Assembly: GCA_003574685.1 (NCBI GenBank)
Contig: QOCQ01000017.1
Span: 62,001 to 126,000, forward strand
Origin: Rhodospirillaceae bacterium SYSU D60007
GTDB lineage: Bacteria > Pseudomonadota > Alphaproteobacteria > Reyranellales > Reyranellaceae
Direction: 5' to 3'
Length of the DNA stretch: 64,000 nt
Positions 8,575 through 34,819 of the stretch are shown one piece after another. The first letter of the stretch is position 1. Every line of letters starts with the position of its first letter. The translations under genes were made by a program, and so were the position numbers. The notes under the pieces are model-generated. The model saw nothing but the letters and a program-made list of their open reading frames with translations, searched no databases and was not told the origin of the DNA.

Positions 8575-11500
8575 ATGATCAAAAAGCTGTTGATTGCCAA
8601 CCGGGCGGAAATCGCCATCCGCATTGCGCGTACGGCGGCGGAGATGGGCATCGCCACTGTCGGCGTCTTTTCGGAGGACGATGCAGCCTCCCTGCACATC
8701 CGCAAGACGGACGAGGTGCGCCCGCTCACGGGCAGCGGCGTGGCGACCTATCTCGATATCGAGCAGATCATCCGGGTCGCGCGCGAAGCCGGGTGCGATG
8801 CCGTCCATCCCGGATACGGCTTCCTGAGCGAGAACGCAGAGTTCGCGCGCCGTTGCGAGGAGGCGGGGCTGGTGTTTGTCGGCCCGCGGCCCGAAACCCT
8901 GGCGATCTTCGGCGACAAGGCGCAGGCCCGCGCGCTTGCGACGCGTTGCAAGATTCCGGTGCCATCCGGCACGGCGGGGCCGACCACGCTGGAGGAGGCG
9001 CAGCGCTTTCTCGCGTCGCTGGGCGAGGGCGGCGCGGTGATGCTGAAGGCCGTGGCCGGCGGCGGCGGCCGGGGCATGCGGCCGGTGCACCATCCGGACG
9101 AGCTGGAGCAGGCCTTTGCGCGCTGCGCCTCGGAAGCGCAGCAGGCCTTCGGCAACGGTGCGCTCTATGTCGAGCAGCTCCTGCCGCGCGTGCGCCATAT
9201 CGAGGTGCAGGTGGCGGGTGATGGCACCGGTGCCGTGGTCCATTTATGGGACCGCGACTGCTCCTTGCAGCGCCAGCGCCAGAAGCTGGTGGAGATCGCG
9301 CCCGCCGCGCACCTGCCGCCGCAGACCCGCATGGCGCTGCTCAATGCCGCCACGACGCTGGCCGCCGCCACGCGGTATGCCGGGCTGGGCACCGTCGAGT
9401 TCCTGGTCGAGGCGACAGAGACGGCGAAGCCGCGCTTCTTCTTCGTCGAAGCCAACGCGCGGCTGCAGGTGGAGCACACCGTGACCGAGGAGGTGCTGGG
9501 GCTCGACCTCGTGCGCCTGCAACTGGCGATTGCCGGCGGCGGCACGTTGGCCGAGCTCGGCCTGGTGCAGGACAGGGTGCCTGCACCGCGCGGCACGGCC
9601 GTGCAGGTGCGCATCAACATGGAAACCATGGCGTCCGACGGCACCAGCCGGCCGGCCGGCGGCACGCTCGGCGCCTACGAGCCGCCCTCGGGGCCGGGCA
9701 TCCGGGTCGATGGCTTCGGCTATGCCGGCTATCGCACCGGCGTGCGCTTCGATTCGCTGCTGGCCAAGCTGATCGTGCACGCCGGCACTGGCGATCTGGC
9801 GGCAGCGCTCGCCAAGGCCTATCGCGCGCTCTGTGAGTTCCGCATTGCCGGGGTCGCGACTAACATCGCCTTCCTGCAAAACCTGCTGTGCCACCCCGAC
9901 GTGGTGGCCGGCCGCATTCATACGCGTTTCGTCGAGGAGCACATCGCGGCCCTGCTGGCGCCGGCCAATGGCGATCACGCGCGCCTCTATTTCGAGCCCG
10001 CTGGACCGGCGGGTGGCACCCAGCGGCTGGCCGGCGTGAAGCTGGAGAGCCGCGATCCCCTGGCCGTGCTGGCGCTGGGCAAGCAGGCGCTGCCCTCGCC
10101 ATCGGTCGCCTTCGACGAGCTGATCGCGGCCGAGGCGGGCGAGGTCGATGCGCCGGAGGGCACCACGCCGCTGCTGGCGCCCATGCAGGGCACGATCGTG
10201 AGTGTCGCCGTCCGGGTCGGCGAGGCGGTGAGGCCCGGCCAAGCTGTGCTGGTGATGGAAGCGATGAAGATGGAGCACGTGATCGGCGCGGAGATCGGCG
10301 GGATCGTGCGCGAGCTGACCGTGGCGGCGGGCGACACGGTGTTCGAAAGCCATCCGCTGGCCTTCATCGAGCCGGCCGAGATCGCCGGTGCCGCCATAAC
10401 CGGCGATGAGGACAGCGATCTCGATACCATCCGTCCCGATCTCGCCGAAGTGCTGAAGCGGCAGGCCATGACGCAGGACGCCGCGCGGCCCGATGCCGTG
10501 GCGCGCCGGCGCAAGACCGGCCAGCGCACGGCGCGGGAGAACATCGCCGATCTGTGCGATCCGGGTTCGTTTGTCGAATACGGCGCGCTGACGGTTGCGG
10601 CGCGGCGCCAGCGCAACACGCTCGAGGAGCTGGTCGAGCGCACGCCGGCAGACGGTATGGTGATGGGGCTGGGCCGCGTAAACGGCGCCCTGTTCCCCGA
10701 CGAGCAGGCGCGCGTGGCGGCCATCGCCTACGATTACACCGTGCTGGCCGGCACGCAGGGCTACAAGAACCACGAGAAGAAGGACCGGATGTTCGAGCTC
10801 GCGGGCCACTGGAAGCTGCCGATCGTGTTCTTCACCGAAGGCGGCGGCGGGCGGCCCGGCGACACCGATGCGGTCTTCGCCGGGCAGCTCCATGTGCGCG
10901 CCTTCGAGCTGTTCAACAAGCTCTCCGGTTTGGTGCCGCTGGTGGGCGTGGTGTCCGGCCGCTGCTTTGCCGGCAATGCTGTGATGCTGGGCTGCTGCGA
11001 CGTGATCATCGCCACAGCCAATTCCAATATCGGCATGGGCGGCCCGGCGATGATCGAGGGCGGCGGTCTCGGCATCTTCCGGCCCGAGGAGGTCGGACCG
11101 ATGAGCGTGCAGGTGAACAACGGCGTGGTCGACATCGCCGTCGCCGACGAGGCGGAGGCCGTGCGCGCCGCGAGGAAATATCTCTCCTACTTCCAGGGCG
11201 CGGTGCAGGACTGGGACTGCGCCGATCAGCGCAAGCTGCGCAAGCTGATCCCCGAAAACCGGCTGCGCGTCTACGACGTGCGCAAGGTGATCGAGACGCT
11301 GGCCGATACCGGCTCGGTGCTGGAGCTGCGGCCGCGCTTCGGCCGGGCGCTGGTCACGGCGTTCATCCGCATCGAGGGCCGGCCGCTGGGCGTGATCGCC
11401 AGCAACCCCATGCATATCGGCGGCGCCATCGATGCCGATGCCGCCGACAAGGCGGCGCGCTTCATGCAGCTCTGCGATGCCTTCGATATTCCGCTGCTGT

Positions 11501-11985
11501 CGCTGTGTGACACGCCCGGCAACATGGTGGGACCGGAGGCGGAGAAGGCGGCGCTGGTACGCCATTGCTGCCGCGTGTTCGTCACCGGCGCCAATCTCGG
11601 CGTGCCGCTGTTCTCGGTGGTGCTGCGCAAGGCCTACGGGCTGGGTGCGCAGGGCATGGTGGGCGGCAGCTTCCGCGCGCCGTTTTTCGCGGTGGCGTGG
11701 CCCACCGCCGAGTTCGGCCCGATGGGGCTGGAAGGCGCGGTGAAGCTCGGTTACCGCAACGAGATCGCTGCGATCACCGATCCGGCCGAGCGTCAGGCGT
11801 TCTTCGAACGCATGGTGGCGCAGATGTACGAGCAGGGCAAAGGGCTCAGCGCCGCCACGCTGTTCGAGATCGACGACGTGATCGACCCGGCCGATACGCG
11901 CCGCTGGATCATGGCCGGCCTGCGCTCCCTGCCGCCGCCCGCGAAGCGCGAGAGCAAGAAACGGCCCTGGATCGATACCTGGTGA
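8575..11985 (+). CDS. Single-chain biotin-dependent acyl-CoA carboxylase (BC-BCCP-CT fusion)
   Basis: A 1136-residue protein carrying all parts of a biotin-dependent carboxylase: biotin carboxylase (about 1-445, starting MIKKLLIANRAEIAIR, with the ATP-grasp GGGGRGM loop), a biotin carrier domain with the EAMKMEH motif (biotinyl Lys565), and a carboxyltransferase (about 620-1136) of the propionyl/methylcrotonyl-CoA beta-subunit type. Usually these are two or three proteins; a single-chain form is known for long-chain acyl-CoA carboxylases. It would use ATP and bicarbonate to carboxylate an acyl-CoA. Flanking acyl-CoA ligases fit a CoA-ester pathway. Start has GAGGG 4 nt upstream. Substrate chain length is not predictable here. 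Confidence 0.9.
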   Translation: MIKKLLIANRAEIAIRIARTAAEMGIATVGVFSEDDAASLHIRKTDEVRPLTGSGVATYLDIEQIIRVAREAGCDAVHPGYGFLSENAEFARRCEEAGLVFVGPRPETLAIFGDKAQARALATRCKIPVPSGTAGPTTLEEAQRFLASLGEGGAVMLKAVAGGGGRGMRPVHHPDELEQAFARCASEAQQAFGNGALYVEQLLPRVRHIEVQVAGDGTGAVVHLWDRDCSLQRQRQKLVEIAPAAHLPPQTRMALLNAATTLAAATRYAGLGTVEFLVEATETAKPRFFFVEANARLQVEHTVTEEVLGLDLVRLQLAIAGGGTLAELGLVQDRVPAPRGTAVQVRINMETMASDGTSRPAGGTLGAYEPPSGPGIRVDGFGYAGYRTGVRFDSLLAKLIVHAGTGDLAAALAKAYRALCEFRIAGVATNIAFLQNLLCHPDVVAGRIHTRFVEEHIAALLAPANGDHARLYFEPAGPAGGTQRLAGVKLESRDPLAVLALGKQALPSPSVAFDELIAAEAGEVDAPEGTTPLLAPMQGTIVSVAVRVGEAVRPGQAVLVMEAMKMEHVIGAEIGGIVRELTVAAGDTVFESHPLAFIEPAEIAGAAITGDEDSDLDTIRPDLAEVLKRQAMTQDAARPDAVARRRKTGQRTARENIADLCDPGSFVEYGALTVAARRQRNTLEELVERTPADGMVMGLGRVNGALFPDEQARVAAIAYDYTVLAGTQGYKNHEKKDRMFELAGHWKLPIVFFTEGGGGRPGDTDAVFAGQLHVRAFELFNKLSGLVPLVGVVSGRCFAGNAVMLGCCDVIIATANSNIGMGGPAMIEGGGLGIFRPEEVGPMSVQVNNGVVDIAVADEAEAVRAARKYLSYFQGAVQDWDCADQRKLRKLIPENRLRVYDVRKVIETLADTGSVLELRPRFGRALVTAFIRIEGRPLGVIASNPMHIGGAIDADAADKAARFMQLCDAFDIPLLSLCDTPGNMVGPEAEKAALVRHCCRVFVTGANLGVPLFSVVLRKAYGLGAQGMVGGSFRAPFFAVAWPTAEFGPMGLEGAVKLGYRNEIAAITDPAERQAFFERMVAQMYEQGKGLSAATLFEIDDVIDPADTRRWIMAGLRSLPPPAKRESKKRPWIDTW

Positions 11986-33727: not shown

Positions 33728-34210
33728 ATGGCGAATGTGGGAGACAAGGTCCCATCCGCGACGCTGCGATACCTGGGCCCGGATGGTCCCAGGACGATCG
33801 GCACGGAGGAGTTGTTCGCGCCGGGCAAGAAGGTTGTGGCCTTCGCGCTGCCGGGCGCGTTTACGCCTACTTGAAGCGCCAAGCATGTGCCAGGTTTTCT
33901 GGCCAATCACGATGCGATCAGGGCCAAGGGAATCGATACGATCGCCTGCATTTCGGTGAATGATCCCTTTGTCATGGGCGCCTGGGCGAAGAACCAGGGG
34001 ACCGGTGACAAGGTGATGATGCTGGCCGATGGCAACTGCGAGTTCACGGAAGCGATGGGCCTGACGCTCGATGCCAGCCGCAACGGCCTGGGCAAGCGCT
34101 CGCAGCGCTATGCCATGGTCGTCGAGGACGGAACCATCAAGGCGCTCTATGTCGAGAAGCCGGGAGCCTTCGATGTGTCGTCGGCCGAGGCAGTCCTCAA
34201 GGGACTGTGA
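33728..34210 (+). CDS. Prx5-type peroxiredoxin, probable selenoprotein (Sec49 by in-frame TGA)
   Basis: A 160-residue peroxiredoxin reading ATG to the final TGA, with one internal TGA at 33872-33874. That codon aligns exactly with the peroxidatic Cys49 of the next gene: PGAFTPT-U-SAKHVP against PGAFTPTCSAKHVP. The frame after it is open for 111 codons and stays conserved; by ungapped hand alignment about 117 of 160 residues match the neighbour. A hairpin with a G-starting loop sits 15 nt past the TGA. The enzyme would reduce H2O2 or organic peroxides with a selenolate. It has an extra Cys104. GGAGG lies 10 nt before the ATG. Without Sec machinery in the genome it would be a truncated pseudogene. 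Confidence 0.8.
33889..33903 (+). promoter_or_regulatory. Candidate bacterial SECIS hairpin
   Basis: GCCAG (33889-33893) pairs fully with CTGGC (33899-33903) around a loop GTTTT. The first loop base, G, is 20 nt after the TGA. Bacterial SECIS elements are hairpins just after the UGA with a G in the first loop positions, so spacing and loop fit. Caution: the cysteine paralogue can form a similar stem here because the protein sequence (VPxFL) is shared, but its loop is CTTC. Confidence 0.6.
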
Positions 34211-34336: not shown

Positions 34337-34819
34337 ATGGTGAAGGTAGGCGACAAGGTCCCCAGTGCCACGCTGATGCACAAGAGTCCCGACGGCATCA
34401 AGCCGATGCCGACAGACGAGCTGTTTGCTTCCGGCAAGAAGGTGGTGGCCTTCGCCGTGCCGGGCGCCTTCACGCCGACATGTTCCGCCAAGCACGTGCC
34501 GAGCTTCCTTGGCAACTACGATGCGCTGAAGGCGAAGGGCGTCGACGCCATCGCCTGCATCTCCGTCAACGATGCCTTCGTCATGGACGCATGGGCAAAG
34601 GAGCAGAAGAGCGAAGGCAAGGTGATGATGCTGGCCGACGGCAACGGCGAGTTCACCGAAAAGATGGGCCTGGTGATGGACGGCTCGAAGTTCGGCCTGG
34701 GCAAGCGCTCGCAGCGCTATGCCATGGTGGTCGAGGACGGAGTCATCAAGGCGCTGAATGTCGAGGCGCCCGGCGCCTTCGAGGTGTCGAGCGGTGAGGC
34801 GATCCTGAAGGCGCTGTAG
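34337..34819 (+). CDS. Prx5-type peroxiredoxin, cysteine form
   Basis: A 160-residue peroxiredoxin of the Prx5/redoxin family, same length as its neighbour. Peroxidatic Cys49 is in PGAFTPTCSAKHVPSF with the family Thr46; a second conserved Cys74 is in IACISVND. It lacks the Cys104 of the selenium form. It reduces peroxides in the cytoplasm using glutathione/glutaredoxin or thioredoxin. GGAGAG lies about 3-5 nt before the ATG. Flanked by its own terminators on both sides, it is a single-gene unit, so it can be expressed when selenium is short. Confidence 0.93.
   Translation: MVKVGDKVPSATLMHKSPDGIKPMPTDELFASGKKVVAFAVPGAFTPTCSAKHVPSFLGNYDALKAKGVDAIACISVNDAFVMDAWAKEQKSEGKVMMLADGNGEFTEKMGLVMDGSKFGLGKRSQRYAMVVEDGVIKALNVEAPGAFEVSSGEAILKAL

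Follow-up and report, generated by a model that had tools for sequence, protein, structure and literature searches.

A predicted selenocysteine-containing Prx5-type peroxiredoxin in Reyranellaceae, encoded with an in-frame TGA at the peroxidatic codon

The window analyzed here is a stretch of 64,000 nucleotides from Rhodospirillaceae bacterium SYSU D60007, the genome of which comprises 5.34 Mb in 58 contigs with 99.8% completeness. The locus holds a tandem pair of peroxiredoxin genes, prxU and, 126 bp downstream of it, prxC (Table 1). Translation of prxU gave a frame of 160 codons with a single internal TGA. The preliminary description had placed this TGA at codon 49, exactly where the paralogue has its peroxidatic Cys49, and translation and alignment confirmed this placement. 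It had also noted that the codons after the TGA stay open and estimated that about 117 of 160 positions match the paralogue; the measured identity was 74% over 160 positions. Under standard annotation, the prxU protein would end at codon 48 or begin late at codon 54. A scan for promoters and terminators found none.

Table 1. Features of the prxU-prxC locus (positions in the window)
Feature	Position	Strand	Basis or detail
prxU, Prx5-type (Redoxin family) peroxiredoxin gene, predicted selenoprotein	33728..34210	+	160 codons, in-frame TGA; PF08534; PDB relatives; orthologues
TGA, codon 49 of prxU, predicted Sec codon	33872..33874	+	Peroxidatic position of the PGAFTPT(C/U) motif
Predicted bacterial SECIS hairpin, UG-U-GCCAG[GUUUU]CUGGC-CA	33886..33905	+	Fold, model test, frozen codons 50-60; bulged U at 33888, apical loop 33894-33898
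Cys74 codon of prxU, candidate resolving residue	33947..33949	+	Alignment: invariant, 25 residues past Sec49
Ordinary TGA terminator of prxU	34208..34210	+	UGA without hairpin still a stop
prxC, intact Cys paralogue, tandem duplicate	34337..34819	+	Cys49 codon TGT at 34481-34483; open frame

The read-through prxU product matched the Redoxin family in Pfam (PF08534, E = 2.9e-34). Its solved relatives were Prx5/type-II proteins, namely 3uma (1.4e-47), 1tp9 (6.4e-44), and human PRDX5 1h4o (7.1e-31). Together with the Redoxin match, the PxxxTxxC/U motif and an invariant arginine (Arg127) place prxU in this class, and the family match and the solved relatives bore out the Prx5 type proposed earlier. 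The predicted structure, a model built on the alignment of relatives, had a mean pLDDT of 89.5 and a pTM of 0.87, with the lowest confidence around residues 41-50, which form the active-site loop. Among the NCBIfam models, no equivalog was found above its cut-off. For the peroxi_PrxU model (NF040737, cut-off 270), the TGA protein of prxU was not among the matches at E values up to 0.001, and prxC scored 33 bits, below that cut-off.

Conservation of the TGA was examined among relatives. A prxU orthologue with exactly one TGA was found in 24 of 75 Reyranellaceae genomes, spread over five genera, and all full-length copies that were read had the TGA at codon 49. Several genomes had no close match besides the TGA copy, and some members of the family had the Cys form only. 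TGA-bearing relatives within the genus of the window include Vineibacter terrae CC-CFT640 (G074) and Reyranella sp. CPCC 100927 (G072). Homologues had been proposed as a check of the selenoprotein claim; close relatives keep the TGA at codon 49 without other inactivating changes.

About 85,000 species genomes were also scanned for the PGAFTPT-TGA pattern, a scan that misses Sec-Prx5 genes with another active-site motif. It returned 33 stretches, and the matches in a peroxiredoxin frame came mostly from Reyranellaceae, with three elsewhere. Since these matches fall mostly in one family and 24 of its 75 genomes carry the gene with one TGA, the TGA of prxU is not a chance occurrence. Reading of the frames showed that ten other matches (L102, L103, L105, L109-L112, L120, L122, and L133) lie in unrelated frames and are due to chance.

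Outside Reyranellaceae, Prx5 genes with a TGA at the peroxidatic codon were seen in a member of Rokuibacteriota (L116, near 4205), a deltaproteobacterial MAG (L126, near 1607), and a Rhodospirillaceae MAG (L130, minus strand). A tRNA-Sec scoring 70 bits was found in the Rokuibacteriota genome, and none above the threshold in either of the two MAGs. A further MAG labelled Caenispirillum bisanense (L127; G001 contig C206) has a Reyranellaceae-type gene and groups within the family of the window, and its label looks wrong.

Directly downstream of the TGA, prxU can form a hairpin with an apical loop that begins 19 nt past the TGA. In the published bSECIS model, the loop has 3-9 nt, the stem 4-16 bp, and a G lies in the first two loop positions; the spacing is 16-37 nt and the MFE at most -7.5 kcal/mol (PMC13188914). 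The prxU hairpin passes this model with the loop GUUUU, 5 bp plus 2 bp across the bulge, a spacing of 19, and -7.8 kcal/mol. Of the 22 Sec (TGA) copies, 20 passed the model, as against 5 of the 31 Cys copies; the pass rate of random synonymous recodings was 3.2%. The folding energy of the wider 54-nt region was not unusual compared with shuffles (z 0.15), and the case for a SECIS element is one of conservation and register, not of raw stability.

The codons after the TGA were frozen as AGC GCC AAG CAT GTG CCA GGT TTT CTG GCC in the 20 Sec copies. Over codons 50-60, mean synonymous codon diversity was 0.05 in these copies versus 0.38 in the rest of the gene (p ~1e-5; none of 100,000 random draws of the same number of codons gave so low a value), and in the 31 Cys copies it was 0.32 over the same codons. 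Hardly any variation occurred in the base-paired part of the hairpin. Some of the frozen codons are unusual for these genes, as CCA makes up 5% of Pro codons and TTT 6% of Phe codons. The serine after the TGA was encoded by AGC/AGT in all 20 canonical Sec copies versus TCN in all 31 Cys copies; the Sec and Cys classes therefore differ by more than one codon. The diversity calculation covered the 20 canonical Sec copies and left out two (L053 in G033 and L060 in G057). These two copies have a TGA at codon 49 in a downstream context of Cys type or mixed type and failed the SECIS model, and both genomes have a tRNA-Sec. Their context may reflect a recent change, another SECIS type, or an error.

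The register of the hairpin was compared with that of E. coli fdhF, using an fdhF sequence checked against E. coli genomes. U17, G23, and U24, counted from the U of UGA as 1, are the positions reported to matter in the fdhF SECIS (PMC8659212), and the prxU hairpin has its bulged U at 17 and its loop start G and U at 23 and 24. The Sec-FdoG genes of relatives share this register, with the bulged U at +14, G at +20, and U at +21. From this common register, one SelB could plausibly serve both the Prx and the FdoG hairpins.

The genome of the window was searched for the selenocysteine machinery, and selA, selB, selD, and tRNA-Sec (selC, anticodon UCA) were all present, so that an absence of selB or selC does not stand against the claim. 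On contig C7, fdhE, selA, selB, and tRNA-Sec lie in a row, and selD (286.9 bits) lies a few kilobases away on the same contig. We read selD as fused to an NADH-dehydrogenase-like part. SelB scored 449.7 bits, above its cut-off, and SelA and SelB contained their diagnostic Pfam domains, including the winged helices of SelB. The tRNA-Sec scored 75.6 bits and was called tRNA-SeC(tca) by ARAGORN. Across the family, a tRNA-Sec above the Rfam threshold was found in 71 of 75 genomes.

Selection was estimated by comparing prxU of the window with nine relatives. For codons 61-160, dN/dS was 0.10-0.22 in eight of the nine comparisons and 0.48 in one; for codons 1-48, it was 0.08-0.22. The part beyond the TGA therefore behaves as translated sequence.

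These results support the earlier suggestion of a probable selenoprotein, through the machinery, the conserved TGA, the frozen codons 50-60, and the predicted SECIS in fdhF register. On this sequence evidence, prxU almost certainly encodes a selenocysteine-containing Prx5-type peroxiredoxin. Other readings of the TGA were considered and rejected. An intact Cys paralogue lies close downstream, and UGA otherwise serves as a normal stop, as at the end of prxU itself; both would suit a pseudogene in which a nonsense mutation killed one tandem copy and the paralogue does the work. However, the TGA is kept in 24 genomes of five genera, in several of which the TGA copy has no close companion, the downstream codons are under purifying selection with dN/dS mostly 0.10-0.22, and synonymous freezing is limited to the SECIS region. 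TGA conservation and constraint refute the pseudogene for practical purposes, and we consider it very improbable.

A frame that is open and constrained past the UGA could be explained by any readthrough, including a programmed one in which a near-cognate tRNA inserts a standard amino acid (Trp, Cys, or Arg) instead of Sec. Such unspecific decoding appears slightly less probable still: the TGA sits exactly at the peroxidatic Cys, the hairpin that is conserved is of SelB type and follows the fdhF register, and selABCD with tRNA-Sec were kept despite the loss of fdoG. The downstream part might also be a separate short protein started internally, and an open GTG-initiated ORF of 107 aa is present at 33887-34210. 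Its product would contain neither the catalytic residue nor the initial part of the thioredoxin fold, and codons 1-48 are constrained too (dN/dS 0.08-0.22), which leaves this reading a negligible chance.

Several elements of the selenoprotein reading are seen directly in the sequences: the reading frame with its conserved TGA, the genes for the machinery, a hairpin that is frozen, and purifying selection past the TGA. The following mechanism can be proposed. When the ribosome reaches the UGA at codon 49, the downstream hairpin in the coding sequence (loop GUUUU, bulged U, 19 nt past the UGA) would bind SelB with Sec-tRNA-Sec, which would be made by SelA with selenophosphate supplied by SelD. 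Sec would then be inserted in place of termination. The selenolate of Sec49 would be the peroxidatic residue that attacks hydroperoxides, giving a presumed peroxidase activity. The resulting selenenic acid would probably be resolved by Cys74 and/or by glutathione, glutaredoxin, or thioredoxin, and a Sec49-Cys74 selenenylsulfide is a possible intermediate.

The history of the Sec and Cys forms was approached with a tree of the peroxiredoxins that excluded the SECIS columns; it requires three Sec/Cys changes and gives no direction for them. The Cys tandem copies of Vineibacter and of genus g3 were placed beside their own Sec copies. A second tandem pair occurred in part of genus g4, and there was also a large Cys-only clade. 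In our preferred reading, Sec would be old in this gene family of Reyranellaceae, and the Cys tandem copies and Cys-only replacements would have arisen later. The prxC copy may serve as a selenium-independent backup for prxU.

Prx-type selenoproteins with Sec at this site were already known, as the preliminary description had stated. Sec-peroxiredoxins of the TxxU type are known from Eubacterium acidaminophilum and are numerous in the Sargasso Sea and GOS data. PrxU of E. acidaminophilum and the bacterial Prx (TxxU) family resemble prxU in the Sec at the peroxidatic position and in the PxxxTxxU motif (PMC13188914; PMC9312934). However, they belong to COG1225/PF00578, whereas prxU is of the Prx5/type-II class, with PF08534 as its best family and only Prx5-type proteins as its best solved relatives. 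The host of prxU is also an alphaproteobacterium, and even the Cys copy prxC scores far below the cut-off of the PrxU model. The Prx5/type-II Cys peroxiredoxins, such as poplar 1tp9 and human PRDX5, share the fold, the PGAFTPTC/U motif, and the invariant Arg127 with prxU, and poplar 1tp9 has a second Cys 25 residues past the peroxidatic position, aligned with Cys74. Unlike prxU with its UGA/Sec, they have a peroxidatic Cys. The alphaproteobacterial Sec-FdoG shares the SelB-dependent type of UGA recoding, and its hairpin matches in the positions of the bulged U and the G-U, but it is an unrelated enzyme and is lost from the genome of the window.

In the open-licence full texts, no description of Prx5-type selenoproteins or of selenoproteins in Reyranella was found. 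The available selenoprotein lists place the TxxU Prx in COG1225/PF00578 and name no Prx5-type member and none from Reyranellaceae. Metagenomic sets may contain Prx5-type Sec-peroxiredoxins. Since TxxU selenoperoxiredoxins have long been known, the new elements here are the Prx5 subclass and the lineage. A 2006 paper described no selenoprotein other than formate dehydrogenase in the Sec-decoding alpha- and betaproteobacteria sequenced by then (PMC1794560). The predicted Prx5-class selenoperoxiredoxin is spread through one alphaproteobacterial family, often accompanied by a Cys twin within the genome, and some of the genomes that have it are without formate dehydrogenase. Such natural Sec/Cys pairs would allow a test of what a peroxiredoxin gains from selenium, and the family offers a clean setting in which to ask why a genome retains the Sec trait.

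Sec-FdoG gave no match over the family cut-off in the genome of the window. An fdoG gene with a single TGA is present in the congeners G072 and G074. At the corresponding site on contig C7 (L019, about 10644-11870; G000 contig C7, about 28.6-29.9 kb), neither fdoG nor the N-terminal half of fdoH is present. The site keeps the C-terminal half of FdoH, fdoI, fdhE, selA, selB, and selC, and crcB-like genes are joined upstream. This gap reflects either a deletion that took fdoG and the start of fdoH or a loss in assembly. A second TGA-containing family of Reyranellaceae, of CMD/AhpD-like proteins, was not found in the genome of the window either. Of the three selenoprotein families checked, only the Prx is present, and it may be the one that sustains the Sec system here. 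The fuller version, to which we give a little under an even chance, is that fdoG was deleted from this Vineibacter-type genome, the Prx5 selenoperoxiredoxin is the sole selenoprotein left and alone maintains selA, selB, selC, and selD, and the tandem Cys copy is its selenium-independent backup.

Eleven other Reyranellaceae genomes had a tRNA-Sec, and no FdoG, Prx-TGA, or CMD-TGA was found in them (G007, G008, G009, G020, G031, G038, G039, G053, G055, G058, and G064). They have either further selenoproteins or assembly gaps.

The CMD/AhpD-like family consists of proteins of about 355 aa with a C-terminal CMD/AhpD-like domain (PF02627), encoded at L179:7950-9035 (minus strand), L185-L205, and L207-L214. 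In 21 of 75 genomes the gene has exactly one TGA; in the copy that was read, it forms part of the motif C-T-Y-TGA. CMD/AhpD-like CxxU selenoproteins are already a known kind. In genome G049, the TGA gene of this family adjoins selB and tRNA-Sec.
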